From a virus, in IMG/VR virus record IMGVR_UViG_3300030430_005296, positions 1,226-59,136 of that record: a stretch of 57,911 nt of DNA; one strand, 5' to 3'. The first letter of the stretch is position 1. Every line of letters starts with the position of its first letter. Shown here in pieces: positions 21,977 through 44,430 of this stretch. The notes below the pieces were generated by a model. The model searched no databases and was not told the DNA's origin. It saw nothing but the letters and a program-made list of their open reading frames with translations. The position numbers and the translations under genes were made by a program.

Positions 21977-23830
21977 TTATTCTACTCTAAACCTAAATTT
22001 TTCTGGTTGCTGAACGTAGCTACCATTAATCAAGTAAGCAAAATCTAACTCGTAAACAGTATCTGTGTCGAATAAATCCATTTCTAAATCAAAATAGCTA
22101 CCACTGACATCATAAGACAATCGAGTGTGGTTTAGGGAACCAGTCCCAAAAGGAATAACTTCTAGATTATCACTTACTCTTGTAAAACGATAGTAAGCAT
22201 TATCAACTATGCTTGTTTCTATCTTGTTATTCGCTACTGTATAAATAGTTGGAGACCAATCTTTTTGACGAGTATACAATCTAAATCTCACTCTTTCGTT
22301 GCGACTGTATGCAGAACGTAAGTTTGTGACTTTAGAGACATATTTTTGATCAAAGTTGTAATTTTGACTGTTAAACGTTTTAACGGTTATTGCTGAACCG
22401 GTGTGAAATATCTTATCAGGATTTCCACCATCATGCCAAACGTCAAAAATAGTTGTTATGCTGGATGAGGGATAAGCAAACGAGCAAGAATAAATTCCTG
22501 TTTCAACGAAGCCGCCAGTAATATTTAAATCTCCACCTGCTACTACTCCACCTCCTGCGGGTAGTTCTAGTTTGTTTCCAACCGGTCCAGTAGATCCGCT
22601 GTATATACTAACAAAAATATTTCCATTACCAATCGAAGGTATATTTTTTAATTCACCTCGTGCAACGTTGTAAAGATAAAGATTCATTAGATTATCAGAA
22701 GCAGGAACGAGAGAAGAACTTAAAAAGAAATCACCACGATTATCTTTTTTACTGTCGTCCCAACGAGCCTCGATAATAGGTCTTTTGTGAAAAAATTGTG
22801 ATCCTCGCGCAAAAAACATTTTAGTGTAAAAAGACTGCTCTTGGGTTTCATCAGACCCTGTTAAACGAACACCAAAGCCAAAATTGTCTAATCCGCCTCC
22901 TGCTTTGCCCATGATCCAACCTTCTACCACTTGACTCACATCTATTTCTAAATCTTCGAATCCTGTATTAAACGATTGCGTAAAGCTATGTTGTTCATTA
23001 TCGACATAACTGCCTCCTTCAACATTACTACCACCAGTAAAATTATTAACAACAAAGGCGCCCATGCCTGAGTCTTGTGCGTTCGTTTTATTACCTACAG
23101 TACCTGGGGTATTCTGCGTGACGAGGACATTATTGCCTGTTTTTGATGCGGTAAAACCAATATTTGTGCCGGCATTAATTCGTGCAATAATTTGATCTGC
23201 GGTGGCTCCTGCATCGCCACCAGCCATACCATCGATACCAATGTTGACAGTGGTACCAGGGGTATAAGCTGTAGTATTTGCCGACACATCCACACCTGTC
23301 ACAAACCCATATGTTGTTGAGGTGTCGGCTGCATCTGTCAATGTAAATGTCCCTGCAGTCAGCAACTCTTTCACCACGGTTTCAATTGATGCAGTAGCAC
23401 GACCTGTAATATCTGCCCATGCGACTCCGCTAGAAGCAGAAATATAATTTGACGCATCTAAATCCGAATATTCTTCCATGTCTAGACCAAGACCTTCATT
23501 CCAGGATTGAGATATTGGCTGAACCAATAGGGTATAATTTTTTGGTGTAGTCTGGCTATGCTCTGCATCATACATCTTTAAAAAGAAATTTACGCTGCCG
23601 GATGCAGGTATAACCCCGCTAGTTCTATCTGCATTTATCGCATCTGTATCAAATTCAATTAAGATCCTAGATAATTCAGAGGAAGAGGTGGTTGCCTGGG
23701 CATATATACTGAAGACTTCAAGAATGTCTGATTGACCCATATTGCTGCTATCGCCGCGTGTTTGCAAATTAGATTTAAATGCATTTGTTATTGTGTTATC
23801 TTTTCTAGCGTAGTATCTTTTAATTGCCAT
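21977..23830 (-). CDS. Virion beta-sandwich protein (DNRLRE-like) with an inserted domain
   Basis: A 617-residue protein. Residues 50-145 and 275-355 together look like a jelly-roll of the DNRLRE type: an ILIEFDTD strand, NFFLKMYDAE, a W-containing SWNEGLGLDM loop, then EIDVSQVVEGWIMG and FGFGVRL. Between the two halves, residues about 147-270 hold a domain also found in the giant neighbour. The C-terminal 250 residues are a series of beta-strand segments ending in EKFRFRVE. The start overlaps the stop of the gp6-like gene by one base, and the giant gene begins one base after its stop. It is presumably a structural part of the baseplate or fibre complex. The DNRLRE call is by motif impression only. 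Confidence 0.55.
   Translation of the reverse strand: MAIKRYYARKDNTITNAFKSNLQTRGDSSNMGQSDILEVFSIYAQATTSSSELSRILIEFDTDAINADRTSGVIPASGSVNFFLKMYDAEHSQTTPKNYTLLVQPISQSWNEGLGLDMEEYSDLDASNYISASSGVAWADITGRATASIETVVKELLTAGTFTLTDAADTSTTYGFVTGVDVSANTTAYTPGTTVNIGIDGMAGGDAGATADQIIARINAGTNIGFTASKTGNNVLVTQNTPGTVGNKTNAQDSGMGAFVVNNFTGGSNVEGGSYVDNEQHSFTQSFNTGFEDLEIDVSQVVEGWIMGKAGGGLDNFGFGVRLTGSDETQEQSFYTKMFFARGSQFFHKRPIIEARWDDSKKDNRGDFFLSSSLVPASDNLMNLYLYNVARGELKNIPSIGNGNIFVSIYSGSTGPVGNKLELPAGGGVVAGGDLNITGGFVETGIYSCSFAYPSSSITTIFDVWHDGGNPDKIFHTGSAITVKTFNSQNYNFDQKYVSKVTNLRSAYSRNERVRFRLYTRQKDWSPTIYTVANNKIETSIVDNAYYRFTRVSDNLEVIPFGTGSLNHTRLSYDVSGSYFDLEMDLFDTDTVYELDFAYLINGSYVQQPEKFRFRVE
23021..23392 (-). other. Domain inserted into the beta-sandwich protein (copy 2)
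   Basis: Codons for about residues 147-270 of the 617-residue protein. The segment follows the same order of motifs as copy 1: GTFTLTDAAD..TTYGF, VNIGIDGMAGGDAG, ADQIIARINA...GFTASK, VLVTQNTPGTVGNK, and NFTGG. The hosting fold (ASSGVAWADIT before, VDNEQHSF after) appears to continue across it. Bases 23041-23280 are about 45% G+C by hand count, against about 32% nearby. The two copies are clearly diverged at protein level, so they are not a recent duplication of each other. Confidence 0.6.
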
Positions 23831-25626
23831 TAGATTACTTCTCCAGTAATATCAGATGATAAAAATTTAATTTCGAATATTGCATCTTTTGGTGCAATTA
23901 AATACCTACCATCATCAGAAATTAAATCATTATAAGCAACGTCATAATTAGAATAATTACTTCCAAGTCTCTGTGTCACTGTAACAAGTTTAGTATCAAC
24001 GACCGAGGGTATATTATTCAACACCTTATAAACATCAGTAATTTTAAATGGTTCTCCAATATCATAAGTATAACCTGAATAGTAATTTGATAAAGTTGCT
24101 ATGCACTCGTTTACAACATCAAATTTATTTACATTTGCATAAGAAACAACTGAAAATTCTACTTGTAAATTTATAATTCTTGCGTCTAAAATATCGATTG
24201 TATCTCCAATCATTTTATATTGATTTATCCAACTTCTTAAATTTTGTTTTACAATGTCGTTTGTTTCTGCTAGCAATCCCAAAGAATCAGTGGAAATAAC
24301 ATATAAGTTTAAGTTTTTTCCACTAAAACTTGTCTCGTCTTTTAACAACTTTGCTTTCTTTACTTGTCCAAAATTTGAAGGCATGTTATAGCAAAGAGAG
24401 ACATAATCTTCAGCAGTTACCGCTCTGTTCTGTGCGGCATACGCACCTTGTGTTCTTAATTTTATTTCTTTCGTTGTAATATCGCTAACTTCGCCGCTTA
24501 TTATTTTTTCATTTGTTAGCTCTAGGCTATTCGCGACTGATGCAACGCTTTGCTGTAACAAGGCAGTTTCATTAAAAAATGTAAAATTAGGCGAAACAAC
24601 ATTACTTAAGCTTCCAACCGAAGCGTTAACTGTTGCTTGTGTGTTTCTTCTATAAACAACAGTTAATAAAGTATTGGAGGGTACAACTCCTAATTTTGTT
24701 GTTTTAGTAAAAACGGCTGGGTCAATTGATTTTTCAGTAATGTGATTTTTGCCAAAAATATCTAGAGACATACTTGTCGGATCTAAAACTTTTTCTTCAT
24801 TATCTTCTGTTCCAAATCCAAATTGGAGTGTGGCTCCAGCAGAAGAGAATTCAGTTGTAAATCTTCTAGGAACTGATATTGGCTTATAAATGTTTTTTGC
24901 ATATTGTTTTGAATCACTAGTATTTAAAACTGGGACATAAACAACATCTTGAGTTAAATAATCAACTTCATAATAGTTGTTTCCATTTGAATCTATTACT
25001 GAAAGTATTTCTGTGATGTTTTGATCATCTACAAATAAAGATAAAAACTTTTCATAATTTTCTACATTAAAAGTTTTAAAACTCACTTCACCAGAAATAA
25101 CTATTCCCTTTGCTTTCAATGCAAATCTCTCTGGAGCGGTGCCGTTTGGTGTGGTTGAACCAACTAATATAGCGTCTTGAGTTTCTGAAAAATCCACATC
25201 TTCAACTAAAGTAAATAATTGATTGGCTGTTGTAGAAAAAGTAGACCCCTTTTTCAAAACAGGCGCATAACTGTAATCTGGTGAAGTTAAGCCGGGTAGA
25301 CTTGGGATTGTTACAAAAAAACTTGCTTCGCCAAAAGAAGAAGCGTTTGGTCTAAATTTGTAACCAAACTGCTTTGAGATTTTTAAAATATTTTTAAACT
25401 CTAAAGCTGTTTCTAGATAACTTTCATTTGCTTGAAAGTCGGTATAAAATGAGATAATATCACCAACATAAGCCACCATATCCAACATAAGGGAGCCAAA
25501 GGAAGCTTCATTGAAATCTCTAAATGTTTCGGGATAGTATTTTTGCGCGTAATTTGTTAATTCTTGCTTAATTGAAGCAAAATCTCTTGCGGTGTAATTA
25601 ATTATTGGTTTTACCACTTTAGGCAT
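23830..25626 (-). CDS. Baseplate wedge protein, gp6/gpJ-like
   Basis: A 598-residue protein starting with PIINYTARDFASIKQEL and continuing with DFNEASFGSLMLDMVAYVGD and FYTDFQANESYLETA. These are the hallmarks of the T4 gp6 / P2 gpJ baseplate family: a Y.a.DF..i...L entry, then a D....p...ll...a...d...y......E..l..A segment. In T4, gp6 dimers form the inner ring of the baseplate wedges. It directly follows the gp25 homologue (12-base gap), the usual gene order in contractile-tail systems. The start has an AAGGAAAA ribosome-binding site. A middle region (residues about 150-420) is the expected variable beta domain. Confidence 0.85.
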   Translation of the reverse strand: MPKVVKPIINYTARDFASIKQELTNYAQKYYPETFRDFNEASFGSLMLDMVAYVGDIISFYTDFQANESYLETALEFKNILKISKQFGYKFRPNASSFGEASFFVTIPSLPGLTSPDYSYAPVLKKGSTFSTTANQLFTLVEDVDFSETQDAILVGSTTPNGTAPERFALKAKGIVISGEVSFKTFNVENYEKFLSLFVDDQNITEILSVIDSNGNNYYEVDYLTQDVVYVPVLNTSDSKQYAKNIYKPISVPRRFTTEFSSAGATLQFGFGTEDNEEKVLDPTSMSLDIFGKNHITEKSIDPAVFTKTTKLGVVPSNTLLTVVYRRNTQATVNASVGSLSNVVSPNFTFFNETALLQQSVASVANSLELTNEKIISGEVSDITTKEIKLRTQGAYAAQNRAVTAEDYVSLCYNMPSNFGQVKKAKLLKDETSFSGKNLNLYVISTDSLGLLAETNDIVKQNLRSWINQYKMIGDTIDILDARIINLQVEFSVVSYANVNKFDVVNECIATLSNYYSGYTYDIGEPFKITDVYKVLNNIPSVVDTKLVTVTQRLGSNYSNYDVAYNDLISDDGRYLIAPKDAIFEIKFLSSDITGEVI

Positions 25627-25638
25627 TAGCTTTTTTCC

Positions 25639-26016
25639 TTATAACACTGGTTTAATTATTTCAAACAAATCTGAAAAATTTATCGAGGGAACAGAATAAA
25701 ACAACCTAACTCCAATAATCATTTCATTATTAGTAGAAAATTCAATGCTGTTTATCTCAATAAATGGCAAATATTCAGAAAATTGTTCTCTTATTCTTCT
25801 AGATATTCTATTTTGATTTTCAAAAGAATCAATTTCAAATAAAAAATTTCTTATTCCAACACCAAAATCAGATATCATGACTCTCTCGCCTGGAGAAGTC
25901 AGCATGATATTTTTAACATTTTGCTTTATATTATCATTTAACGTCTTAGTTAAAGAATAAAAGCCATCTTTGTCATCTCTCTGTAATGGTAAAACTGCTG
26001 AAAATCCGTATGCCAT
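25639..26016 (-). CDS. Baseplate wedge protein, gpW/gp25 family
   Basis: A 125-residue protein with the classic gp25/gpW core: LTSPGERVM at about residues 39-47, followed by FGVGIRNFLFE at 51-61, and paired strands near the C-terminus (EINSIEFS, GVRLFYSV). Length equals that of the family. gp25 contributes to the sheath-initiating inner baseplate in T4-like, P2-like and type VI systems. It precedes the gp6-like gene as in those systems. The upstream 51-base gap contains an SD-like AGAGGAAAG, so the start is well supported. Confidence 0.9.
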   Translation of the reverse strand: MAYGFSAVLPLQRDDKDGFYSLTKTLNDNIKQNVKNIMLTSPGERVMISDFGVGIRNFLFEIDSFENQNRISRRIREQFSEYLPFIEINSIEFSTNNEMIIGVRLFYSVPSINFSDLFEIIKPVL

Positions 26017-32000: not shown

Positions 32001-33915
32001 CAGATTTTTTTTCTCTTAATCCATTTAAAGAATCATTTAATTCTTGTCTTCTGAATTCTTTTTGTTGTTTTCTTTTTATTAAACTATCAGACCAAAGCCA
32101 ATTAACGTCTGCATTATCTTGAAGATCTTTTCTTATTTTATCATTTATGTATTCTTGACTATCAAGCCCAAGTGCGCGTGTAGTTTGAGCATATCTTAAA
32201 GACAATCTACTAAACAATAGCTTCATATCTGTTACTCTACCAGCTCTCCAGGCATCTGTGACAAAAGCATTGCTGGTTAATTCTACTAATGTCTCTGCGG
32301 CACCCCTGGCAGTGTCAATAATTAAATCTTCATTTAGTATTCTATTGAAATAAATGTCTTTTAATCTAGTTGATAAATCTTTTGCAACACCATTATCCAT
32401 TGACTCCAACTCTTGAATAATAGTTTCTTTATGTTCGTCGAAGTGTTTTAGTATAAAATCTTTACATATTTTATCTATCCATTCCCTTAAAGGTATTAAT
32501 TTTAATAAACATCTTGTGGATAAAGCTATTAATTCAGGTATGGGTACATAATTTAACAAGTCTTCAAAAAAATCTTCTGTTGATTCAATTTCTCTAAATT
32601 TTCCTTTAAAGAACGCTTCACCAATAATATCATTTATGCCTTCATACTGTTGACTTACCTGCGCCTCCATCTGACCTTTAAAAGCATCGGAAGCAAAAGC
32701 GGCATTTGTTTCAACGTATTCTCTGAACACATCATCATCAAGCATTCTAATATCGCCTAAAATAAAGGTTTCTATTAGATCATTTGTTATTCCAGTTCCA
32801 CTATCTCTGAATGTGCTTTTTGGGTATATGTATCTTTGAATAAATGTTTTTAAATCTGATTCTCCTTCAAAAAGATTATTAGATACAACAGTAATTCTGT
32901 TTGAATATTTGTTATAAATTTTTGACAAATTGTATATTATTGAATTTGTTGTTTTATCATTAAAAAACTTTTTCAAATTTCCAGAAAGTTCATTTGTTTG
33001 AACTAGAAATCCCTTTCTGTTATTCTGATTAAGAAAAAGAATTCCTCTAAGTGTATAATCTTCTCTATCAAACATGAATTTTATTTTTGTTAAATCGGCT
33101 GCCTTAGCGTCGGGGACGTTATTAGCTTTTATACTTTTTATTGCCTGTGGTAGTTTTCTAATTTTTGTCGACTGATAAATGAAGTCAATCTGCTTATTTA
33201 AGACTATTGAGTGATGGTCTATTCTTTGTTTTACTTTCTTTAAAAGAAAGCTCGTTACATAGGCGTAGTTATCAATATTGCTAATAGTGTAGATAGAAAT
33301 TACTTTGTTGTCATCTTGTACAGAAATGTCACCTGGAATCACTGGACCCAATGAACCTTTCTTTTGAGCCCTCTTTGCTCTTTCTCTTTGTTGCTGCTCA
33401 AATGCCATACCAGCGCTGTCAGCTGCTGTAAAATCTGTAGCTACCATTTGATTTCTAACCAAAAGCGTTGGGGCGCTTACAAATATTTGATAAAGTAATT
33501 TTCTGTTAGTTTTATCTGTGAAATCATAAGCTTCAATTGTGGCGTGTTTTCTTCCAAAGCCATAAGCATCAGCCAAATCTTCTGCATCTACTATACTGCC
33601 CGGAAATTCAAAGGCTCCGATATCAGTAAAAAACCCTTCTTCTCTAAAGCGAAACCCTTGATTTCTTATTTGTGTAAAAAAATGTTTTTTTATGTCGTCG
33701 GGAGAGGTATCGGCGCCCTTTGGTGAATCCATTTCACCAAAAAATATAAAATATCTTGGAATTATATTTTTTATTGTAAGAGAAACCCCAGGCACCCCAA
33801 CAAATCTATTTTTATATTTTTCTAGCCCCTTGCTACGGTTGAGGTTTTTATACGAATTAATAGCTCCTTCTAGTTGCTCGCTGCTAATCGCAATATATGT
33901 GGGTTTTTTAGCCAT
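26068..33915 (-). CDS. Giant 2615-residue virion protein (baseplate/tail)
   Basis: A single frame of 2615 codons located between spike-like genes and the gp25/gp6 wedge pair. It is mostly helical in its first 1600 residues, with many charged amphipathic stretches (for example LIKRKQQKEFRRQELNDSL). A hydrophobic segment of about 22 residues lies near residues 815-838 (CLAIIGAIPAAIYMIVKLF). The last 120 residues contain a Gly-rich hydrophobic helix (ARGIASVGLGLVKFFFG), then DPTWRTPWFAPGPLTPFG and an acidic tail. No enzyme motif is visible. It could act as a tape-measure-like, hub or wedge protein. The hydrophobic segment and size would suit a membrane-interacting tail-tip role, but length and location do not discriminate. 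A G+C-rich patch lies at 26761-26940. Confidence 0.55.
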   Translation of the reverse strand: MAKKPTYIAISSEQLEGAINSYKNLNRSKGLEKYKNRFVGVPGVSLTIKNIIPRYFIFFGEMDSPKGADTSPDDIKKHFFTQIRNQGFRFREEGFFTDIGAFEFPGSIVDAEDLADAYGFGRKHATIEAYDFTDKTNRKLLYQIFVSAPTLLVRNQMVATDFTAADSAGMAFEQQQRERAKRAQKKGSLGPVIPGDISVQDDNKVISIYTISNIDNYAYVTSFLLKKVKQRIDHHSIVLNKQIDFIYQSTKIRKLPQAIKSIKANNVPDAKAADLTKIKFMFDREDYTLRGILFLNQNNRKGFLVQTNELSGNLKKFFNDKTTNSIIYNLSKIYNKYSNRITVVSNNLFEGESDLKTFIQRYIYPKSTFRDSGTGITNDLIETFILGDIRMLDDDVFREYVETNAAFASDAFKGQMEAQVSQQYEGINDIIGEAFFKGKFREIESTEDFFEDLLNYVPIPELIALSTRCLLKLIPLREWIDKICKDFILKHFDEHKETIIQELESMDNGVAKDLSTRLKDIYFNRILNEDLIIDTARGAAETLVELTSNAFVTDAWRAGRVTDMKLLFSRLSLRYAQTTRALGLDSQEYINDKIRKDLQDNADVNWLWSDSLIKRKQQKEFRRQELNDSLNGLREKKSVFGGVNEPTNVVSTEEYYVRKISEIDTELVEINNGITNARDLLLLFRQLFETVFPALLELNPYLTTEEKNELKAHYRNDLYFIIPNGYNKSKALKALNNIESTNLNFEFPVNYDSLTLSQKQTVYDQKIVKLIDFYDLIGELENSPNNSLKILNQLQKQGTEGLDLAVNEIFGNDTERYYLCLAIIGAIPAAIYMIVKLFQNLDETIDDIKKATGSVVDAVEKRILLFMRYDYPYLDILAEFGKQLGQIAINLTRDLIVTGLMMGMEELRKLCSDEEQVNAPYNPVGSIDLSNFLINSKRGTNGQKTGTIEASPSYTKISTLDPSITPQIYESILLTLSLNFSINELFSLFGDTASDELYTKVLEYVLELSPDLISPDSGFFNYYLNESGMRQFIEILSKDIEFSFFAKAKAEYERQKELLLQACITDDYSFIVENFDFPEGQNINDFLAANVAKNRNAIDIIRRNVENMMQGNTVPTLCEDGKGFLTDPQKFTAKQIAQSIFDTIDENNSQAVSIAKDLYTDPGAGFEKFRSISPSLGQEPVSTLDLIDKNRTELINFVNKNDFAGRKIFESLFNSDSSITDPLSIDNFKFIKEENQEVNMIRFFFEESDISNEKIDFKFDINKDELDFRYGLTPKVSEGEEEIMTEKIVSYSQNKYFESIKQQFEIENIPDSENLTPSNNFFGYPFGIITQPSYNQAIKYILSDFVLNYENQEGEDAYLIILNSIFKDLFLFSFKTGLYQKDRFNLLNLNKQIVNSFSEDTGQDNCFLGFFHPQSLTEETVKFAERIVCYYSNSATQTPVNIAFVKSTFDCFIRTIVLQEFMQSFFNFGIFPQELIFSEASPHTTSFYEKIVRIKIEDALKNSINSLSMDYASFYNDIFKKFIVDITRIIFQNQNLSEENALTFVINSQIQFVKNMFKKAYINAFGLSESVIGETEFQLLEQKVFNDLSNDSDVEQSAQNVALLNTIQENFDISEKIRSIQNDGLTAYYDATKNVPTQVLFNGDTYFFKKIEDEETGVTNMVTVEVEENIPVFLKNAEEPGVGYLNFEDFTEQVSTDPNKITHQNVKGLILDKYIELKPNTNFLNEETFLIEGGYKMLFDQFIELLEKYIEPYIVNVSGVEISGSNKGLKYRTKLKMLLYETKLFVLFPQITNFIDSLDEKYLNNIQPYEQHLQPLWVKYYNIRGGKFDLFSKTYAMNFDPDFFKDEENVDWFNSLNTTPLLKENFNFSLFGKIRLGDFENILSKFLYPSPFYSLKLDQSLDQNQINKEVKSQISNNLINGFGKVDYLKTLFTYKTRVSEFYDLIKGVGQDDFELLRVFMEEFVVDEVHDGKNLFHWFYEKKVSDAFHVNTCIRLEMKLPDSGNLQISSNFANKSLTALDKTPNKRQFLQKILLEEKFGPEIINNENNLFSAPIFELKEQIPDYLTWFDFFVNVDKESYFLDDNFYNVKLTNDLKNVNSILFPTQVLRSDCISFYNRLKTFSSTTQGLKATVRKDSYYSTYWWNIQGKAYTLQEITKAIYGIEENENQKNKILDALTPDSLESFGFSASDVQTGEAVLESAPKFYIRELNSTDFRYLFANILKGADAASSPLVQFFDKKKMTFESINGESIDPYIAINPAFDWGWFFLLSQGAEDSRASELNKAFVGAEFESGYFFGYGGERRPIGPTIAPKLFTLDEEGNEIPFDEAPDLGYVVEAIILQGRTNYKIITGSPKYEEYGLYTGVLTKAQMRNKDRKTVTNWLTKFVESGGTATITYGAIKGGISGGVSQIIEKDVFDGNPSVNIYDLFSAMLKDEKDKQMFDRILKSLFIKEQTTIIAIIHRILSNAHYPEVKEAFIPAIADSFETVLAAVASANGDYQHTSESNSGGSGLGPDAFARGIASVGLGLVKFFFGSLASSVDPTWRTPWFAPGPLTPFGIAAKLLEEQKIEEPPEKLDKAPTDIPAGVCEDSLLEAGEFFTEFLETYKDSLASKEQD

Positions 33916-33918
33916 AAT

Positions 33919-35562
33919 TTAATTTGTCCTATTTTTTTCGCTTAAAATTTTATATTGCCCAATCGGGTTAAACGCATTAACGTCATTTCCTGTTCTATTT
34001 AGCATTATACTTAAAATGTTGGCTTGCTGCCTTGCGGTATCTAGTAATGCCATTTTACCTGCTGTAACGACTTCAATAGAGCCATACCCTTTACCACCAT
34101 TAAAAGCTAAAGGATTGCTACCGTTTGTTGATAAAAACCCCATTGTTATAAGATAAGGATCATAGTGAGTGTGTTTCATAACTGCGGCGTTAAATTTTGA
34201 TTGTGAATTTATAAAATCGACTAATACCGCCCTAACTGAATCTATGACATCTGAAAGATTTTCGAGATATAACTTTAAATTTTCACCTTTTACTAGGGGC
34301 TGAAGATCAGAATCGTCGTTACCTGCAATTAAATCGATGCCAAATTTTGAAATAACCTCACCGCCGTCGACACCTGGTACTGCTTTAGAAGATTTTTTAT
34401 CTGGTGCGGTTATTAATCTTATGCCAGCAACACGAGACATTAAAACAATGTCATCTGCTTTCATAGCTACTAAAGATAATCCTTTCCTTGTCTCTTGTTC
34501 TGCATTGCGGCTGTCTGATAACTTTATAAATTTTTTGCCATAGCTTCCTTTAGCAGTAACTTTCAAAAGACTATCAACGTCAGATTTTTGAGAAACGTAT
34601 ATATAGGCTGAATCTGATACTAAATCATTAGCCTCGCCTGTTACTTTCTTGCGATTTGCTTCTTCTGGATCGGCTTGTTCCGATAAGGTTAACGCAGGTC
34701 CTTCTTTTTTTGGCGAACCTTTTCGACCGGCGTAAATATACACTGCGCCTATCCCAGTTTGAGGTCTTAATCTATAATGTTCATCTCTAGAGCAAATAAT
34801 ACCAGAATTATTTTCACTTTCAAGATAGCTGTCACCGGAATAATAAATTGGCTTTGGTACCGGTTCAATGTTCCTATCTCCTCCAACCCCTTTTAACTCA
34901 ACAGTTATACTATCCGGTAGGTTGTTTAATTGTCCTGCTTTGCTAGTTGACATCCCGGATCTAGAAGCAACAGGCTTTTTACCACCAACAGCTGGTAGAG
35001 GCATATTTCGTTGCATATCTAGATTTGATCCAGTATCAGTTTCAGAACGAGAAAATTGCTCGCTCTCGCCCTCGAAATCAAAATCCTCATCGTCTATGTT
35101 GGTTTCGTCTAGAGGAAATGTACTTTCTTCATTAATTGCATTATAAAGCTCTTTATTCTTTTTTTCAATATTGCTAACTGTATCTTGAAACTCTTTTAGT
35201 GGATCAAGTTTATTGCCAAGTTCTACGGCAACATTTCCAAAGTATGTCGGATCATCTAATTTTATTTCTAGCTTGTTATCCAAAAAATCATTTAATGAAT
35301 TAATATCTACAGAATCTACGTTAATTTTTAAAATATAATTTATTATTTGTTTTACAAAATCTGCTTTATTTGGAGCATTCAATGGCGACGATTTTGAATA
35401 AACTTCATCAACATAATTCTTAAGCTTTGCTTTTTCATTTGGGATAATAAAAGTTTTATCCGTAGACTGATAGCTTGCTTCTAGTGTCATTTTTAATTGT
35501 CTAAAAGAAAGGACTAACGTGTCCCCATTCTTTTCTACGCTAAGTTGAATTACATTATTCAT
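33919..35562 (-). CDS. Putative baseplate spike/hub-associated structural protein
   Basis: A 547-residue protein. The first 130 residues are helical. Residues about 140-175 are strongly acidic (ETNIDDEDFDFEGES). A Ser/Gly-rich linker with SGMSTSKAG follows. The C-terminal 200 residues contain DGGEVISKFGIDLIAGND, PLVKGENLKLYLENL and MKHTHYDPYL. A PLV.G..L...L..L......HTH arrangement is common in gpV/gp5-type spike and spike-associated proteins, where a C-terminal HxH can bind metal. Here HTH is followed by another 80 residues, so it is not a tip motif. It follows two hub-like genes and precedes the giant baseplate gene, consistent with a central baseplate role. Confidence 0.5.
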   Translation of the reverse strand: MNNVIQLSVEKNGDTLVLSFRQLKMTLEASYQSTDKTFIIPNEKAKLKNYVDEVYSKSSPLNAPNKADFVKQIINYILKINVDSVDINSLNDFLDNKLEIKLDDPTYFGNVAVELGNKLDPLKEFQDTVSNIEKKNKELYNAINEESTFPLDETNIDDEDFDFEGESEQFSRSETDTGSNLDMQRNMPLPAVGGKKPVASRSGMSTSKAGQLNNLPDSITVELKGVGGDRNIEPVPKPIYYSGDSYLESENNSGIICSRDEHYRLRPQTGIGAVYIYAGRKGSPKKEGPALTLSEQADPEEANRKKVTGEANDLVSDSAYIYVSQKSDVDSLLKVTAKGSYGKKFIKLSDSRNAEQETRKGLSLVAMKADDIVLMSRVAGIRLITAPDKKSSKAVPGVDGGEVISKFGIDLIAGNDDSDLQPLVKGENLKLYLENLSDVIDSVRAVLVDFINSQSKFNAAVMKHTHYDPYLITMGFLSTNGSNPLAFNGGKGYGSIEVVTAGKMALLDTARQQANILSIMLNRTGNDVNAFNPIGQYKILSEKNRTN

Positions 35563-35603: not shown

Positions 35604-36833
35604 TTATCTAAAAGGTAAAACGCTTTTAATTAATTCTGCATACTTTCTCTTTTCGCCAGGATGTTTATAATGGTTTCTGAATTCACCAGTCATTGGCATA
35701 CCGGCGGCACTTGCTGCTAGCTTTATTTTTTTAGTGTCTTCCATCACCGACACGTAATTACTAAATCCCACCGCTTTTGCTTGTTTTTGTAAATTTAAAT
35801 CCATATTTTCTCTTAATTTGGCGAGATTTGGATTTGTATCGCTCATTCCAAAAGGTAATCCATAAAAGACAACTAGTATTCCATTATCCTCGTAATCTTT
35901 AAGTGTTTCAAAAACAGCGCGAACATTTTTATTAAAATCTGACGCGTCGTTAGCTACGTCTTTTGGCTTTACAGTCGTAGAGTCGTTTCCGCCTGCTGAT
36001 CCTATTATTATAACAGCTATATTTTCTTTTTTTATACCTAAATTATCTAAAGGTGGAGCAGTTGTAGATCCTTTTTGTATGGAACCGATTTTTGTTGCAG
36101 GTCCGACTAATTTTCTACCACTTCTTATAAACTTTCTATAATCAGAGCTAGGGTAAAACTCGTTTTTCCAACTTCTAAATATATCTACTTTGCCTTTGCC
36201 GGTACCAGGAGCCATGGTATTAGCTACAGTGTTTGAATCTCCCAACAAAACAACAAACTTTCCGACTCCACCATCTTTAGGCGGTTCTGTTGGGATTGAT
36301 GGTTTTGAAGTGGTCATGCCACCTCTGCCGCCAGTGGATGCACCGCCAGAAGAAGGGCTTTCTCTTTCTACACCTTCACTTATTTTTCCAATTTCTAAAA
36401 GCAAAGGCTCTGAAAAGTTGCTCATATTCCCAAAAGTTACAGTAAGAATTGTACCAGGAATAACAGAATTTGCTTTGTTGGAGGGTATTTTTGAAAAATT
36501 ATTTTTATAAGCCACAAAAGTAGGGTATAGGGATATTGCTGCCATGTCATTTTTATCTTTTGGAATTGGCAACATATAATGTAGTTCGGGTATTCTTGCT
36601 TTTATCCTAACAAGATCCTTGTGCTCATCTTTCGTATTTTCCAATTTTCTTAAACAAACAGCATAAAATTTAATTTGATTTGAAAGAGCATCATTTTCGT
36701 AAGAATCTTTTATGAGAAGTCTTATTTGATCTTCTGCTGTTTTTATTATGTCTAACGTACCGCCGTCAGGATTAGCAGAACGTTCAAAAAAGCTTGCATT
36801 GGACGGAGCATTATTGAAAAGATTCTCGGTCAT
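35604..36833 (-). CDS. Hub/spike-like protein fused to an SGNH (GDSL) hydrolase domain
   Basis: A 409-residue protein. Residues 1-150 are closely related to the N-terminus of the next protein upstream, sharing ASFFER, IKFYAVCLRKL, HYMLPIPKDKNDMAA, and PGTILTVTFGNMSNFSEP. This looks like a beta-barrel hub module. A Gly/Ser/Pro linker (residues 160-190) leads to an SGNH-type domain: GDSN with Ser200, a GGND block with Asn283, and HYKHPG with His391. SGNH enzymes remove acyl or acetyl groups from carbohydrates or lipids, so a role in deacetylating host surface polysaccharide or peptidoglycan during entry is likely. The start is one base after the stop of its paralogue. Confidence 0.75.
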   Translation of the reverse strand: MTENLFNNAPSNASFFERSANPDGGTLDIIKTAEDQIRLLIKDSYENDALSNQIKFYAVCLRKLENTKDEHKDLVRIKARIPELHYMLPIPKDKNDMAAISLYPTFVAYKNNFSKIPSNKANSVIPGTILTVTFGNMSNFSEPLLLEIGKISEGVERESPSSGGASTGGRGGMTTSKPSIPTEPPKDGGVGKFVVLLGDSNTVANTMAPGTGKGKVDIFRSWKNEFYPSSDYRKFIRSGRKLVGPATKIGSIQKGSTTAPPLDNLGIKKENIAVIIIGSAGGNDSTTVKPKDVANDASDFNKNVRAVFETLKDYEDNGILVVFYGLPFGMSDTNPNLAKLRENMDLNLQKQAKAVGFSNYVSVMEDTKKIKLAASAAGMPMTGEFRNHYKHPGEKRKYAELIKSVLPFR

Positions 36834-36834
36834 T

Positions 36835-38397
36835 TTAGTTTATTTTAAATCCCAATTCTTCTATGACATCTGGATGTTCTTGTTCAAAGATATTTCCGTA
36901 CTGAAGTACTTTTAAGCTGTAATTAAAATTATCTGGACCACCTCCAAGATAAGGGACGATGCCATAATAAATGTCAGCAACATCTCTTGAGCCAATAGGC
37001 TGTCTGAAGCCTTTATTTAGCTTATTTTTAGCACCTTGTTTGCTAGGCTGGCTCCACCATTGCGCCGCACATAAAATACTTCCAAGGAAGGGATCTTTAT
37101 AAAATTGAGCTAATATATTATCAAATTTTGTGATGGTTAAACTTTCTCTTAGTGCGTTTGATGTTTTACTGATTCCATTTAAGGGAAGCAGCGATTCTCC
37201 TCCAAGTGTTTGAAAAAGTCCTAGCGCTGTCACTCTTATAGCACTCATCGGAGCTATCTTGTAAACATTTCCGAGAGCGGATTTTGTCATGTCTTTGCCT
37301 CCAAAAAGATTAGCAAAAGAATCTCCAGATTTGTGTGCATTTTTTTGATCTCTTCTATTGTCGGTTGAATCGTATTTGTGATCAGAGGTAAATGTGCTCC
37401 TATCGAACTTGAGGCGCTTCTTTTTACCACGAGTCGAATCAGGCAAAGCTTCAATTTTTCTTAATGTTTTTTCATCGTAATTTTTTAAAATGATACTACC
37501 CTTGGAACGACTTCTATTAAAAAATTGACAGTTTACAGCCCTTGCAATCGCATTAGCTTCCGTTGTGTCACTAGCGGTTGGGGTTGGACTTATCTTTGTT
37601 AAACGTGGTGCTGATTTTAAAGCGTTTTTTCCATAAAGCGCACTAGTGCGCTTGACCCCAGCCTTTTCATCTAATACCAATGCTTTGTCGGCAGCAGTAA
37701 ACTTAAAATCAGCCTCTTTACCTTTAGTGTTTCCAAATCCACCAGACTCAACCCTCATAATTCCAGCTAAAGCTCTCGGGTCAACACCTGTTTTCTTTGA
37801 AGTTTCTCTAATGATGGCGACACATGTTTTTTTAAAAGATTTGCCGGTGTCGTCTATTGTGCTTGTATCTAAATCTACTGGACCTCCTCTTCCTCCAGTG
37901 CTGCCTCCACCACCACCTCCAGTAGAAGGACTAGGGCTTTCGCTTTCTAGTATTTTACCTATCTCTAAAAGTAAGGGTTCTGAAAAATTACTCATATTAC
38001 CAAAAGTTACAGTAAGAATTGTACCAGGTGTTATTTTTGTTCTTGCCCCTATTTTTGGATTAAAATTATTTTCATATGCCACAAATGTTGGATAAAGCGC
38101 AATTGCTGCCATATCATTTTTATCTTTTGGAATAGGTAGCATATAATGAATTTCAGGAATCCTTGCTTTTACTCTCACTAATCCGTCATGAATATCTTTT
38201 GAATTATCTAGTTTTCTTAAACAAACAGCATAAAATTTAATTTGCTTTGAGAGGCTATCTGGCTCAAACTTGTTTTTAAGAGCCCTACGAATTTGGTCCT
38301 CTGCAGAGGTTATTAAATCTATCGATGTATTCTCTGGATTAGCCGCTCTTTCAAAGAAGCTTGCATTAGAGGGAACTTTGAGAAACTCTCCACTCAT
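36835..38397 (-). CDS. Hub/spike-like protein fused to a lytic transglycosylase-like domain
   Basis: A 520-residue protein with the same N-terminal hub module as its neighbour (residues 1-150), then a Gly-rich linker (STGGGGGGSTGGRGG) and a catalytic region from about residue 185. It has DPRALAGIMRVESGG with Glu217, which matches the SLT-type signature in which the Glu is the acid/base. The enzyme would cleave peptidoglycan as the tail tip crosses the periplasm, as T4 gp5 lysozyme does. The domain continues to about residue 490 (LGLFQTLGGES, AAQWWSQPSKQ), longer than a minimal SLT domain. The ATG follows the preceding gene by 6 bases. Confidence 0.75.
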   Translation of the reverse strand: MSGEFLKVPSNASFFERAANPENTSIDLITSAEDQIRRALKNKFEPDSLSKQIKFYAVCLRKLDNSKDIHDGLVRVKARIPEIHYMLPIPKDKNDMAAIALYPTFVAYENNFNPKIGARTKITPGTILTVTFGNMSNFSEPLLLEIGKILESESPSPSTGGGGGGSTGGRGGPVDLDTSTIDDTGKSFKKTCVAIIRETSKKTGVDPRALAGIMRVESGGFGNTKGKEADFKFTAADKALVLDEKAGVKRTSALYGKNALKSAPRLTKISPTPTASDTTEANAIARAVNCQFFNRSRSKGSIILKNYDEKTLRKIEALPDSTRGKKKRLKFDRSTFTSDHKYDSTDNRRDQKNAHKSGDSFANLFGGKDMTKSALGNVYKIAPMSAIRVTALGLFQTLGGESLLPLNGISKTSNALRESLTITKFDNILAQFYKDPFLGSILCAAQWWSQPSKQGAKNKLNKGFRQPIGSRDVADIYYGIVPYLGGGPDNFNYSLKVLQYGNIFEQEHPDVIEELGFKIN

Positions 38398-38403
38398 AAC
38401 TTT

Positions 38404-38700
38404 TTATTTTTCCCCTTGGATTACGTCAAAAAGAGACTTTTTATCTTCTTCCGATAGCTCAACACTCGTATTCGTTTTCTTCGCCATAATAGACGTAAGT
38501 TTTACTAATTGCTCATTGGATCTTTGCAAAGTTTCTACATACTTGGCTGCAATTAGCCCAAGATCCTTATGAGTTTCTTGACCATTGGTTATTTCTGCAA
38601 AAACTTGCGTGAGAAGGGTAGAGGTAATATCGCGGTCGTCGCGAATGTTGCTGATTGCTTCTTGAATATAATTTTCTAGGTCTTTTACTGATCGTCCCAT
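38404..38700 (-). CDS. Small helical protein of unknown function
   Basis: A 98-residue, mostly helical, hydrophilic protein with a coiled-coil-like middle (AAKYVETLQRSNEQLVKLT). It overlaps the end of the sigma-factor gene by 16 bases in another frame, starting at the ATG in GAATGGGACG. Its position between the late sigma factor and the hub genes suggests a late gene, perhaps an assembly chaperone or small structural protein. No family is recognised. Confidence 0.5.
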   Translation of the reverse strand: MGRSVKDLENYIQEAISNIRDDRDITSTLLTQVFAEITNGQETHKDLGLIAAKYVETLQRSNEQLVKLTSIMAKKTNTSVELSEEDKKSLFDVIQGEK

Positions 38701-39383
38701 TCTTTTTTAAACTCCGCGTAACGCTTTCTTACTTTATTAAGAGAGCTTACAACTTGCTTTGTATTAAGACCAGTAATCTCTCTAATATACAAGTAAATAG
38801 CTTTTTTATTAAAAATCTCTATATTGTTAGCTTCGTTAAAAAGAATCTCAATGGCTTGAATAGTCTTTACTTCATTTTCTCGTAGGGGCATTTTTTTCCA
38901 ACCTTGTATTTCTTTATTAAGGTGTAGGAAAAATTCATGTTTGTTTCTGTCTTCAATGTAGGTATTATGAACGACTAATCTTTGTATGGAGGGTATGTTT
39001 GACTGATCGGTGTGGGTTAAAAAATATTCTTCTAGGTGGGTTTCTCTTTTCGCTTTTTTTGATGTCTTTTTTACTTCTGCAATAAACCAGTTTTTTGATA
39101 CAACACTAAAGTAAGTAAATGCTTTGGAACCTTTATCTGGATCGAAGTTATTGAGGACTGTAATTAACCAGTTTTTGCAATCGTCTTTAAGAGAATCAAT
39201 ATTTGGAAGAGAAGTGAACTTATAAGTATACACAATTTTATCTACCATTTCGTCGAACACTGGTCCAATAAAATCCTTGTAAAGTTCATTTCGACGTTTA
39301 GGATCTTGCGTTTGGCAATATTCTACAATTGCATCCTGGTGTTCTCTTCTGAAATAATGATTTTTAGTTCTCTTCCTCGGCAT
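38685..39383 (-). CDS. T4 gp55-like late transcription sigma factor
   Basis: A 232-residue protein with a sigma-70 region 2-like core at residues about 65-105, notably NNFDPDKGSKAFTYFSVVSKNW. This matches the core-binding and -10-recognition helix region seen in gp55-type sigma factors of T4-like phages, which direct RNA polymerase to late promoters. The C-terminal part (residues 160-232) is helical and basic and lacks a clear region 4, as in gp55. It starts in the 3' end of the previous gene with AGAGGAAG upstream. Placement just before the virion genes fits a late-gene activator. Confidence 0.8.
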   Translation of the reverse strand: MPRKRTKNHYFRREHQDAIVEYCQTQDPKRRNELYKDFIGPVFDEMVDKIVYTYKFTSLPNIDSLKDDCKNWLITVLNNFDPDKGSKAFTYFSVVSKNWFIAEVKKTSKKAKRETHLEEYFLTHTDQSNIPSIQRLVVHNTYIEDRNKHEFFLHLNKEIQGWKKMPLRENEVKTIQAIEILFNEANNIEIFNKKAIYLYIREITGLNTKQVVSSLNKVRKRYAEFKKEWDDQ

Positions 39384-40508: not shown

Positions 40509-41081
40509 CTACATAGCATTCCATTGTCTGTCAATTTTTATGTTCAAAGAGTCGATAAACTTATTCAGTTTATCATGTCTGTTTTTGTCTATATTTGATT
40601 TTTTTTGATGAAATTCTATCCATAGTTCGTTTATAAAGTAGATAGAGCTATCTTTTATCATTTTTTCAAGCACATCGTACTCTGATCCTTCTATATCCAT
40701 CTTTAAAATAATATTATCTTGTTTTGAAAAATTTTTTAATATCCATGTTGACAAATCAATCGCTTCAACCTTTTTTATTTGCACTTCTTTATGACACTGA
40801 AGATTCCATTTATTTTTTTGTTGACATAGAGTACTTGCACCAGTTCTCATATCTTTATTTCCATATCTATCGTTCGATACCACGAAAAAATCCACTTCTG
40901 TATCTGCGATCCAAACGGCTTTTTTAATTAAATTGACACCTGTATTTTCAATATCTTCGTAAAAAACCTCATTCGCTTCAAATGAGAATATTTCATAATC
41001 ACCCCAATCAGAAACAATCTTTTTGAACTTTCTAACTGAACAGCCATTATTTGCGCCGCAATCTAAAAAAATCTTTCTCAT
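40509..41081 (-). CDS. FkbM-family SAM-dependent methyltransferase
   Basis: A 190-residue protein with the FkbM signatures: LDCGANNG at residues 6-13 (SAM-binding loop I), FSFEANE (acidic end of strand 2), VEAIDLSTWI, and ILKMDIEGSEYDVLE in the middle. FkbM enzymes O-methylate sugars or polyketides. As the last gene of the island it could cap or modify the acidic sugar or its acceptor. It follows the dioxygenase gene by one base. The amber stop is followed by an open in-frame tail (separate entry). Confidence 0.85.
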   Translation of the reverse strand: MRKIFLDCGANNGCSVRKFKKIVSDWGDYEIFSFEANEVFYEDIENTGVNLIKKAVWIADTEVDFFVVSNDRYGNKDMRTGASTLCQQKNKWNLQCHKEVQIKKVEAIDLSTWILKNFSKQDNIILKMDIEGSEYDVLEKMIKDSSIYFINELWIEFHQKKSNIDKNRHDKLNKFIDSLNIKIDRQWNAM

Positions 41082-41082
41082 A

Positions 41083-41985
41083 TTAAATGTCTACCACCAC
41101 AGCTTGTAAAATTGATGGATCTTTGTTAAAAGTTGTATGCTGCCAGCCATTTCCAGTATTGAACCTATTAATAAATGGAGATATTTTTTTTGATGAAGGC
41201 TTAAATTGCATTACAATAACATCTCTATACTTATTTTTTGGAATCGTTGCTTTATGTATTATATTATTATCAAATAAAAACAAAGTGCCCTTTTTACCAG
41301 TTGCACTATAGATTTTGAATCCATGTTCATTAATCAATTTATTTATAAAGTAAGGATCTACTCTATCACCACCTAACCAAGAAATTTTTTGATCTTTTAA
41401 ACGATATGCTGGTGGTGGATTGTTTTCCCATGGTTCAATCCATCTGTCCGGATAAGAAACTCTTGAAGTTGGAACTTTAAGTCCCTCACCATTTTTAATT
41501 AAATATGTAAACTCGCCGCAATCAGATTCCACATCTGTTAAATAAATCAATATTTTTATTTGTTCTTTTGGATTATTGTCAAAATGCCAAAGCCAAGAAG
41601 AAGAGTCTCGCTCATTTGAAGTAAAATTCCTATAAATCTTTATGTTGTCTGTGTGAACATAGGAACCAAAAACCTTTTCTTGCAATTGTGGTACTAGAAA
41701 ATCCCCAAGCTGTTTAAGTTCATTTTCACAATTCCAAATGTTGTCTAATGCCAAGCAGTGTGCTCTTTTGGTAAAATTATTTGGATTTGTAAATAAATTA
41801 TTAACTTTATTAGACAAATCATTAATAATATTAAAGTAATTTTCGTCTCTTTGAACTATTGGATCGGTTAAATTATGTTCCGAAATGGTTATATCATAAA
41901 GATTTTGAACAATTTTAGATTTGTTTTTTATCTCAAATTGTTTTTTACTTAAAGAATAATATTCTGTCCAGCATGACTCTCTCAT
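41083..41985 (-). CDS. Phytanoyl-CoA dioxygenase-like 2OG-Fe(II) oxygenase
   Basis: A 300-residue protein with the facial triad of the 2-oxoglutarate/Fe(II) family: WLWHFDNN (His134, Asp136) and IIHKAT (His244), then Arg254 as the likely 2-oxoglutarate ligand. The strand IKILIYLTDVESDCGEF between them is typical of the PhyH group. Such enzymes hydroxylate small molecules and sugars and are common in phage and capsule loci. Its substrate is unknown; position between a transferase-like gene and a methyltransferase suggests a glycan or nonulosonate derivative. The start overlaps the preceding stop as ATGA. Confidence 0.7.
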   Translation of the reverse strand: MRESCWTEYYSLSKKQFEIKNKSKIVQNLYDITISEHNLTDPIVQRDENYFNIINDLSNKVNNLFTNPNNFTKRAHCLALDNIWNCENELKQLGDFLVPQLQEKVFGSYVHTDNIKIYRNFTSNERDSSSWLWHFDNNPKEQIKILIYLTDVESDCGEFTYLIKNGEGLKVPTSRVSYPDRWIEPWENNPPPAYRLKDQKISWLGGDRVDPYFINKLINEHGFKIYSATGKKGTLFLFDNNIIHKATIPKNKYRDVIVMQFKPSSKKISPFINRFNTGNGWQHTTFNKDPSILQAVVVDI

Positions 41986-42962
41986 TTAGACCACCTGCAA
42001 AGTTTTTTTGTCATGTTATGTTCATAAACATGACCTAAATTTACAATTTTTAGATTTTTAAAGTTATTTTTAATAAATTCCCAAAAAACTATGTATTCTC
42101 TCAGTTGTGAATCAAATGTTTGCCCATTCGGAATGTTTTTTTTGCTTTTCTCAAATGCAGAAAGACCTTTACCAGTTTGATAATCTTTTTCTGGGTGTCC
42201 ATCGAGTCCAACGACTTTTATTTCTTTTGCCCCAAAAATAGCAGCTAGATTGATCATTCTTGGGACAATTCCAATGGTAGTGAACATTCTAGTGCTGAAC
42301 AAGAAACATTTGTCTTTGAATGTAGTTTTGTAAAGATTTAATGTAGAAAAATCTCTGTGTACATTAATATCAAAACAAAGCACACAGTCTTGATTTTTTA
42401 TTAAAAATTCTCTACTGGTTTTCTTTTTATAAACTTCATTGGACATGTAAAAAAGAGAAGGATTCAAATTTTTAACTTTTTCGTGATTTAAAAAATCATT
42501 GCAAACCCAAACAAAATCACTATCAATGCTTTCCAAATCTACCATGTTAGTGGAAGGTCCGGCACCTATTATTAAAATAGATTTATCTGCAAACTTTTTA
42601 ATTTGGGGGAAACTTTCTATAATAAAATCTTCGTCTACAATGAGATCACTCATTTGATAAAGATTTTGCTTTATTTTATTAAAATGTGGAATTCCGTGTC
42701 TATTATTAAATTTAAAATCTTTTTTTTCTGTTAAAAAACAAGCCTGAGTGGGATCATCACAATTTTGATAAGTGTAATCAGCACCAAAACATTCTTTTTT
42801 ATAAGAATCAAACCAAACATTATTTTTTGGCTCAGTTCCAATTTTATCTACAAACTGCTTATAAGCTTTTTTTATTTCTGGTTTTGACAAATCAGTTATT
42901 TTAATAAATCTGTCACTTAGATTGTTTATAGATTTTTTCATATAAATTGAATTCCCATTCAT
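41982..42962 (-). CDS. DUF115/GT42-like Rossmann protein, candidate nonulosonate transferase (A)
   Basis: A 326-residue protein. The core begins ILIIGAGPSTN (residues about 129-139), followed by a short strand with VWVCNDF, a TTIGIVPRMINLAAIFGAK helix, and EIKVVGLDGHPEKDY. This arrangement (GxGPS, N-D/F strand, S/T-G-hydrophobic helix, G-x-D) resembles the Campylobacter Cst-type sialyltransferases (GT42) and the DUF115 motility-associated factors that attach pseudaminic acid. It lies directly downstream of the CMP-sugar synthetase. The N-terminus overlaps that gene by 50 bases; a later ATG at 42941 is an alternative start. Transferase function is inferred. Confidence 0.55.
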   Translation of the reverse strand: MNGNSIYMKKSINNLSDRFIKITDLSKPEIKKAYKQFVDKIGTEPKNNVWFDSYKKECFGADYTYQNCDDPTQACFLTEKKDFKFNNRHGIPHFNKIKQNLYQMSDLIVDEDFIIESFPQIKKFADKSILIIGAGPSTNMVDLESIDSDFVWVCNDFLNHEKVKNLNPSLFYMSNEVYKKKTSREFLIKNQDCVLCFDINVHRDFSTLNLYKTTFKDKCFLFSTRMFTTIGIVPRMINLAAIFGAKEIKVVGLDGHPEKDYQTGKGLSAFEKSKKNIPNGQTFDSQLREYIVFWEFIKNNFKNLKIVNLGHVYEHNMTKKLCRWSK

Positions 42963-43593
42963 AATCTATGTCAAAAGTTTCTTCTTCAGGAACAGGGAAT
43001 AATTCTATTTCACCTTTTTTTGTAAAATCCCCCATCCAAACCCCTTTACCAATTTTTTCTAAAGATCCTGCATAAAGACAATGTGCCGCCTCTAAAATGG
43101 GTTCTGCGGTTTTAGTGTTCATTACCGCCTCGTCTACACGAGTTAAAAACGTTCCATCAGAAGACCAAAAATAATTCTTTTTTTCAATTACTCCAAACAT
43201 CCCATCTTTTTCTGAACTTAAATATGCATTAGTGAAATCATCAATTGTTTTGACTGATAACATCGGAACACATGCATTTGTAAGAATTACAAATTTATGA
43301 GGAATTTTATTCCACCACTCATAAATTTCAGTCATAGGAGTCCCTTCTGACTTTGCAGATTTTTCACTTCTTTCAAAAACATTAACAGGATATTTATTGG
43401 CTATTTCTATTAATTCCGGTTCATAAACAGAAACGTAAATGTTTTCATTTGGGATTAGCTCTGAATCTACTAATTTTTTTATGTTTATGTCAAGTAGAGT
43501 AGTTTCGGCAAATGGTCTAATCATTTTCCTTGGACATCTCTGAGAAGATAGTCTAGCCTGAATTAAAAATGCTACATCTTTAATTTGTTTCAA
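42913..43593 (-). CDS. CMP-nonulosonate cytidylyltransferase (NeuA/PseF-like; TTG start)
   Basis: A 226-residue nucleotidyltransferase. The N-terminal FLIQARLSSQRCPRKMI matches the nucleotide-binding loop of the NeuA/PseF/SpsF/KdsB group, followed by LLDINIKKL. The C-terminal ETFDIDYEWEF corresponds to the FDID metal-binding end. It would activate the acidic sugar with CTP to give CMP-sugar, the donor for transfer. The start is TTG with AGAGGAAA upstream; no ATG fits. It follows the short NeuB-like gene by one base. Which acid it activates cannot be read from sequence. Confidence 0.75.
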   Translation of the reverse strand: MKQIKDVAFLIQARLSSQRCPRKMIRPFAETTLLDINIKKLVDSELIPNENIYVSVYEPELIEIANKYPVNVFERSEKSAKSEGTPMTEIYEWWNKIPHKFVILTNACVPMLSVKTIDDFTNAYLSSEKDGMFGVIEKKNYFWSSDGTFLTRVDEAVMNTKTAEPILEAAHCLYAGSLEKIGKGVWMGDFTKKGEIELFPVPEEETFDIDYEWEFNLYEKIYKQSK

Positions 43594-43594
43594 T

Positions 43595-44428: not shown

Positions 44429-44430
44429 TT

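Follow-up and report, generated by a model that had tools for sequence, protein, structure and literature searches.

In a 57,911-nucleotide stretch of DNA (the window; positions 1,226 to 59,136 of IMG/VR record IMGVR_UViG_3300030430_005296 and thus most of that 59,136-base uncultured virus record), two neighbouring minus-strand open reading frames (ORFs), gene A (520 aa) and gene B (409 aa), are separated by one base. The source is a marine virus of bacteria. The two proteins share an N-terminal OB-hub domain and differ in their C-terminal payloads, which are muramidase-like in gene A and SGNH-like in gene B. With moderate confidence, we propose that they are tandemly duplicated tail-tip lysins of the T4 gp5* kind, an esterase and a muramidase for O-acetylated peptidoglycan. 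They occupy a slot that we defined as the position between a 98-aa gene, itself following a sigma-like gene, and a spike-like gene, upstream of gp25 and gp6. This slot was compared across 172 retained loci (numbered with the prefix L) from uncultured viruses. At the level of sequence comparison, the duplication, the conserved slot, the exchange of payloads and the co-occurrence of every SGNH payload with a lysozyme-like domain are all evident. Three things are new: the finding, at this scale, of an OB-lysin slot that is split and exchangeable, the duplication of that slot with payloads that differ, and the consistency with which SGNH and lysozyme are paired.

Two OB-hub genes with different payloads

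BLASTP aligned the N-termini of A and B over 149 residues, 107 of which were identical (72%, E 7e-71). Two DNA segments were repeated exactly, one of 33 bp (36645-36677 = 38212-38244) and one of 29 bp (36430-36458 = 38000-38028). The homology extended into the Gly-rich linker (..SxGGxxSTGGRGG..) and ended there. The initial annotation had described about 150 common N-terminal residues in two adjacent genes, near-identical DNA around 36430-36460 and 38000-38030, and divergence after glycine-rich linkers; all of these held. Its idea of a duplicated hub-type gene with swapped payloads was likewise upheld by the BLASTP match, the linker breakpoint and the differing C-terminal domains. Comparison of the two OB copies (151 codons) gave a synonymous divergence (dS) of 1.75 and a nonsynonymous-to-synonymous ratio (dN/dS) of 0.13, indicating that the duplication was old enough for near saturation at silent sites and that both copies were retained under purifying selection. 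The GC content was 36% and 38% in the payloads and slightly lower, 33%, in the OB parts. Gene B contained no stop codons or frameshifts. An assembly artefact or a pseudogene was ruled out by the dN/dS value, the intact frames and the independent twin loci in relatives.

The AlphaFold model of the gene B copy of the shared domain had a predicted local distance difference test (pLDDT) score of about 90 over residues 54-150, and its five strands (56-64, 74-80, 105-109, 129-136 and 141-148) followed the OB order. The best solved match of residues 51-149 was phage P1 Gp5 (9vzk_q, i.e. 9vzk chain q; Z 7.0, root-mean-square deviation 3.4, 79 aligned residues), with 22% sequence identity in a comparison that covers the OB part only; a Z score below 8 calls for caution. 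When the OB-family profile was run against the PDB, P1 Gp5 ranked second with a non-significant E of 0.3. Matches among viral models included two proteins of cyanophages labelled 'baseplate hub + tail lysozyme' and one 'Gp5/VgrG OB-fold' protein. The curated OB families Phage_base_V and Gp5_OB had no Pfam match (E <= 0.01) in the window proteins or in 179 slot proteins. The OB genes are placed in a baseplate block with spike-like, gp25-like and gp6-like genes. The model, the profile ranking and the gene position support the assignment of the shared part of about 150 aa as an OB-fold-like hub domain of the T4/P1 gp5* type. Neither A nor B contains a triple beta-helix, both chains ending after the enzyme payload, and the enzymatic half and the spike half appear to be separate genes here.

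For the gene A payload, we built a profile without the window from four slot muramidase-domain proteins, three of them Pfam-confirmed (L053, L166 and L237), and it retrieved gene A with an E of 1.7e-6. Glu217 of VESGG and the segment TALGLFQTLGG aligned with the slot muramidases, and the E, G and Q were invariant in the five-member alignment. The Glu (VES), T.xG.xQxxGG and tyrosine/Gly motifs of the PF11860/DUF3380 type are common to gene A and the slot proteins that pass Pfam; unlike that family, the gene A domain is interrupted by a long insertion, and its Muramidase (PF11860) score fell below the Pfam cut-off (E 0.12, 13.1 vs 22.3 bits). SLT_2 was also sub-threshold (E 0.052 with the whole protein and 0.033 with the payload; 13.8 vs 24.3 bits). 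The SLT families (PF01464 and PF13406) were therefore rejected as the cutter family, since the muramidase-type profile fits better. Thus, the Glu in VESGG that had been read as transglycosylase-like is present, while its assignment to the SLT type gives way: the alignments support an N-acetylmuramidase-like (PF11860/DUF3380 type) payload over SLT.

The gene B payload carries Ser200 (GDSN, block I), Asn283 (GGND, block III) and a C-terminal His-Pro (H391) in SGNH order, and the Ser, Asn and His were invariant over ten slot SGNH domains. The profile of these ten domains retrieved many solved GDSL proteins (best 7bxd, E 3e-7), and the nearest solved folds include lipases and CE2 carbohydrate esterases. 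A pattern of blocks I, III and V, written post hoc with gene B in view, was unique among 2,187 ORFs and occurred in 0 of 200,000 shuffles. No Pfam family matched the payload. From its motifs it is probably SGNH hydrolase-like, and we infer an SGNH fold for it.

An exchangeable slot and its SGNH-lysozyme pairs

Direct scans of viral contigs with the A and B proteins found no relatives. A tblastn search of A, B, the spike-like genes and the L151 SGNH twin against 50,697 phage records gave no match, and the same search with L237 retrieved only muramidases annotated as endolysin or virion protein. NCBIfam and PDB sequence searches with single window proteins gave no useful match. Relatives were reached only through searches with the neighbouring sigma-like and spike-like genes. 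A hidden Markov model (HMM) of the OB domain, with both window copies as its seed, reached 64 proteins in the first locus set. The 172 slots are the loci retained after removal of duplicates; the scans reported >500 loci beyond these.

The number of OB copies per slot was 0, 1, 2 or 3 in 15, 149, 5 and 3 slots, respectively (168 OB proteins in total), so that duplicate OB genes occurred in 8 of the 172. The OB domain was constant across slots, and the C-terminal payload varied: M15, amidase, M23, NlpC-like, several lysozyme types or none. The length after the OB domain ranged from 2 to 1401 residues; 11 OB proteins had <70 residues there, indicating that the enzyme is optional. Pfam analysis of the 179 slot proteins (E <= 0.01) identified VanY/M15 in 37, Amidase_2 in 17, M23 in 6, M74 in 3 and CHAP in 2, and lysozyme-type or glycoside hydrolase families in 23. 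The nearest relatives of the window have a single OB gene, fused to Amidase_2 in L088 and to an M74-like payload in L089; in L092, another near relative, an OB-only gene is followed by a separate enzyme-like gene. L009 (7266-10321) contains two OB copies that are 85% identical, the second without an enzyme, and last a free enzyme gene that is related to the first copy's payload (38% over 268 residues); it is an apparent intermediate of payload evolution.

SGNH payloads were found in 10 of the 172 slots, in about six lineages (the window; L151 and L173; L034 and L243; L154 and L187; L164 and L185; L237). None of the ten had SGNH as its sole enzyme, and all ten contained a lysozyme-like domain in the same slot, with partner calls made partly by Pfam and partly by eye. 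Three gene arrangements were seen. OB twins or triplets paired the two enzymes in five slots (window, L151, L173, L034 and L243), an adjacent gene without OB did so in two (L154 and L187), and both domains lay in one chain in three (L164, L185 and L237). The firmest Pfam partners were a muramidase (PF11860, E 1e-15) on the same chain as GDSL (E 3e-8) in L237, a tail lysozyme (PF18013, E 2e-19) in L243 and a phage lysozyme (PF00959, E 1.5e-6) in L187, where the SGNH chain additionally carries M23; weak partners were found in L173 (SLT, E 0.007) and L034 (E 0.01). All five OB-SGNH genes were in the eight multi-OB slots (5/5, Fisher p 5e-8). The orthologous OB domains of L151 and L173 are only 51-56% identical, yet both loci have kept the SGNH-lysozyme twin. 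Owing to the 172-slot comparison, the evidence for pairing is much stronger than a single locus could give. The combination of a peptidoglycan cutter with a deacylating enzyme, a probable SGNH esterase, as first proposed for the window, thus recurs in every SGNH slot, in at least three gene architectures. This constant partnership suggests that the SGNH enzyme may prepare the wall for cutting.

A hetero-oligomeric hub had also been read from the design of the two genes. It is possible and not implied: triplet OB slots (L034, L043 and L243) make a mixed trimer attractive, and such an oligomer is not required because relatives pair the enzymes by a free SGNH gene or a single fusion. As a tentative wider reading, the slot phages would form a widespread, largely marine group of uncultured contractile-tailed phages in which the enzymatic half of the central spike is a gene of its own, an exchangeable OB adapter, and in which several lineages have duplicated or fused that gene and always joined an SGNH de-O-acetylase to a lysozyme-type cutter, as a dedicated counter to wall O-acetylation, with twins possibly forming a mixed trimer.

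Several slots showed other arrangements. In L015, L105, L112, L113, L302, L312 and L038, the OB protein has almost nothing after the OB domain, and no separate enzyme gene was found between the OB gene and the spike-like gene, indicating that such phages may enter without a hub-borne wall enzyme. L043 (7952-11947) has three OB paralogs in a row, with an unclassified payload, a VanY/M15 peptidase and a payload whose HRSG...SxGCQ motif is reminiscent of catalytic motifs of the L,D-transpeptidase type. The genome scan gave one related phage-like contig, L315 (JAUVQD010000088.1), of 6.3 kb, in an actinomycete metagenome-assembled genome, with sigma-like, OB-lysozyme-like and spike-like genes, the payload being SLT-like by eye only. 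It is probably a misbinned phage fragment and was not taken as a host assignment.

Proposed mechanism and competing explanations

In the proposed mechanism, the OB adapter of about 150 aa would mount each protein on the central hub, and both proteins may sit in one hub. After the duplication, the C-terminal enzyme of one copy would have been exchanged at the Gly-rich linker. During entry, both enzymes would be delivered to the wall; the gene B esterase would strip O-acetyl groups, most likely from C6 of N-acetylmuramic acid (MurNAc), and the gene A muramidase would then cut the deacetylated glycan strand, letting the tube pass. Lysozymes and lytic transglycosylases are both blocked when MurNAc is O-acetylated, a block that the SGNH esterase Ape relieves (PMC6174289).

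Several results speak against the proposed reading, the first of them concerning gene B. Ser80, Asp366 and His369 of Ape are essential (PMC6174289), and the window copy is without that Asp: its DxxH position is His388, where all nine relatives show DGxH. The window copy was not retrieved (E >10) by a profile built from those nine SGNH domains, an HMM alignment ranked it among controls, and the domain model, itself of low confidence, gave generic alpha/beta matches and, among them, GDSL esterases. Because of these three results, we use the label 'SGNH-like', and the missing Asp makes esterase activity uncertain. Of the initial claim of an SGNH hydrolase in the second gene, the ordered Ser, Asn and His blocks remain, and the DxxH Asp and a Pfam match are lacking. 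The payload might therefore be catalytically dead or degenerate and kept as a structural or binding hub subunit, with the muramidase twin working alone, an alternative that we take seriously and still judge unlikely. Loss of the Asp solely in the window copy and a payload too diverged for profiles would fit it, as would the enzyme-free OB-only slot proteins, whose existence indicates that the OB part alone is useful; the three blocks are nevertheless kept in order in an undamaged frame, and some SGNH enzymes work with altered triads, one report describing a water-mediated triad in CE20 (PMC12313940).

Further points against the reading concern the pairing. The partner in L151 rests on an SLT hit with an E of 0.15, and for L154, L164, L185 and L034:2527-3831 the lysozyme type was assigned by eye. 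When strict Pfam calls were applied to all slots alike, glycan cutters were only modestly enriched among SGNH slots (4/10 against about 18/162, p 0.025, or 5/10 against 17/162, p 0.004), and these p values ignore kinship, the ten SGNH slots not being phylogenetically independent. This modest enrichment would also fit if payloads were shuffled freely and the twin were a recent chance duplication with no functional coupling, perhaps with one product per virion or competing homotrimers. The extreme payload turnover in the slot and the amidase-type (L088) and M74-type (L089) single-OB genes of the two nearest relatives point the same way. Such independence is improbable in our judgement, given that SGNH never occurred alone, that the twin persisted between L151 and L173, that three loci have fused both domains in one chain and that the window pair shows purifying selection.

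The substrate could also lie outside the wall. SGNH domains in phage tail fibres and spikes are described as acting on surface polysaccharides in the accounts of PMC8471582 and PMC11058221, and lipases and CE2 esterases are among the nearest solved folds. The gene B enzyme might then act on an outer barrier (an O-acetylated capsule, O-antigen, exopolysaccharide or lipid) and share with the lysozyme only a common place at the tail tip. We consider this quite unlikely: the slot belongs to the central hub rather than to a fibre, and nearly all other classified slot payloads are peptidoglycan hydrolases. Moreover, SGNH pairs with glycan-strand cutters and not with the much commoner M15 and amidase payloads, which points to the peptidoglycan glycan as the probable substrate of the proposed esterase.

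Comparison with known systems and the surrounding genes

In T4, gp5* (OB and lysozyme) and gp5C (spike) arise by cleavage of one chain, and the OB fold of gp5 is thought to be an adapter between gp27 and the spike (PMC3004832). Like gp5, A and B have an N-terminal OB adapter, a flexible linker and a putative wall-cutting domain and lie beside spike-like and gp25/gp6 genes (PMC3004832). Unlike gp5, they are without the beta-helix, the spike-like part being a separate gene (33919-35562), and in place of T4's one gene with one lysozyme there are two OB paralogues whose payloads differ. Staphylococcus phage phi11 Gp44 (Tal) also combines a tail-tip wall hydrolase, an endopeptidase, with a C-terminal predicted SGNH domain, and its host peptidoglycan is O-acetylated (PMC4876445); in contrast to the window, it is a single chain of a siphophage with a gp27/Tal-type hub and a peptidase partner. 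The hub protein gp15 of Anabaena myophage A-1(L) has several hydrolase domains, two of them active on host cells, whereas all of its domains are in one homotrimeric chain and no SGNH domain was reported (PMC10966104). In chemistry, a parallel is Ape1 with bacterial lytic transglycosylases, in which an SGNH esterase removes the C6 O-acetyl group that blocks glycan cleavage (PMC6174289); unlike the window copy, this cellular enzyme has the full Ser-Asp-His triad.

The related cultured phages Mel-JY01 (Microcystis) and immuto (Flavobacterium) have what look like different genes between the sigma-like gene and gp25. By eye, both have an OB-plus-spike protein without an enzyme, and Mel-JY01 also has a separate chitinase/endolysin-type gene. 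Alignment of these proteins with the window family was not significant, so the comparison is positional.

That phage tail and lysis proteins are mosaics of domains is well established (PMC10684548), and viruses known to carry two virion lysins were of two kinds in a 2017 review (PMC5380687). Peptidoglycan O-acetylation is a bacterial defence against lysozymes, and a review of its removal does not mention phages (PMC6174289). If true, a tail-tip slot that repeatedly couples an esterase to a glycan cutter would represent a phage response specific to O-acetylation. The 172-locus slot also offers a ready-made catalogue of the many wall-cutting enzymes that one mounting domain accepts, useful for the study of tail evolution and for lysin design.

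The features of the locus are listed in Table 1. The minus-strand order is sigma-like gene, 98-aa gene, gene A, gene B, 547-aa spike-like gene, 2615-aa gene, gp25-like gene and gp6-like gene. The model of the spike-like protein had a pLDDT of 57 and no fold match, so its identity as a spike rests on position only.

Table 1. Features of genes A and B and of the neighbouring baseplate genes, in window coordinates.
Feature	Position	Strand	Basis
Gene A: OB-hub + N-acetylmuramidase-like protein, 520 aa ('SLT' gene of the initial annotation)	36835..38397	-	slot-muramidase profile
OB-hub domain copy 1, gene A residues 1-151	37945..38397	-	homology to twin, family HMM
Gly/Ser-rich linker of gene A, end of homology with twin	37867..37935	-	
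Gene A muramidase-like payload, residues 178-520; VESGG, TALGLFQTLGG, YLGGG	36838..37866	-	profile, motifs
Codon of putative catalytic Glu217 (VESGG), gene A	37747..37749	-	invariant in five-member alignment
Gene B: OB-hub + SGNH-like protein, 409 aa	35604..36833	-	homology to twin, motifs
OB-hub domain copy 2, gene B residues 1-153	36375..36833	-	model, five strands
Gly/Pro-rich linker of gene B, residues 154-190	36264..36374	-	
Gene B SGNH-like payload, residues 191-409	35607..36263	-	motifs; alpha/beta order in low-confidence model
Codon of putative nucleophile Ser200 (GDSN), gene B	36234..36236	-	invariant in 10 slot SGNH domains
Codon of His391 (KHP), putative catalytic His, gene B; DxxH Asp position = His388	35661..35663	-	
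Conserved spike-like gene 'hub547', directly downstream of slot, 547 aa	33919..35562	-	family beside slot in all retained loci
Conserved 98-aa gene, upstream edge of slot	38404..38700	-	
Late sigma-like factor, syntenic anchor	38685..39383	-	PHROG 234, E 5e-7
gp25-like baseplate wedge protein	25639..26016	-	PHROG 261, E 1e-14
gp6-like baseplate wedge protein	23830..25626	-	PHROG 219, E 2e-21; also in Mel-JY01 and immuto phages

Two very large proteins are encoded on the minus strand of the baseplate block, of 3178 aa (12439-21975) and 2615 aa (26068-33915). The gene for the latter separates the spike-like gene from gp25, a place taken in L003 by a 1964-aa gene. Directly upstream of the tail-hub genes is a sugar cassette (40509-48734, minus strand) with two NeuB synthases (43595-44428 and 45772-46788), a cytidylyltransferase (42913-43593), a DegT aminotransferase (46781-47773), a 4,6-dehydratase-type epimerase (47736-48734), a GNAT acetyltransferase (45245-45772) and an FkbM methyltransferase (40509-41081). 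The cassette resembles a phage-borne pathway for the synthesis of a nonulosonic acid of the pseudaminic or legionaminic type.

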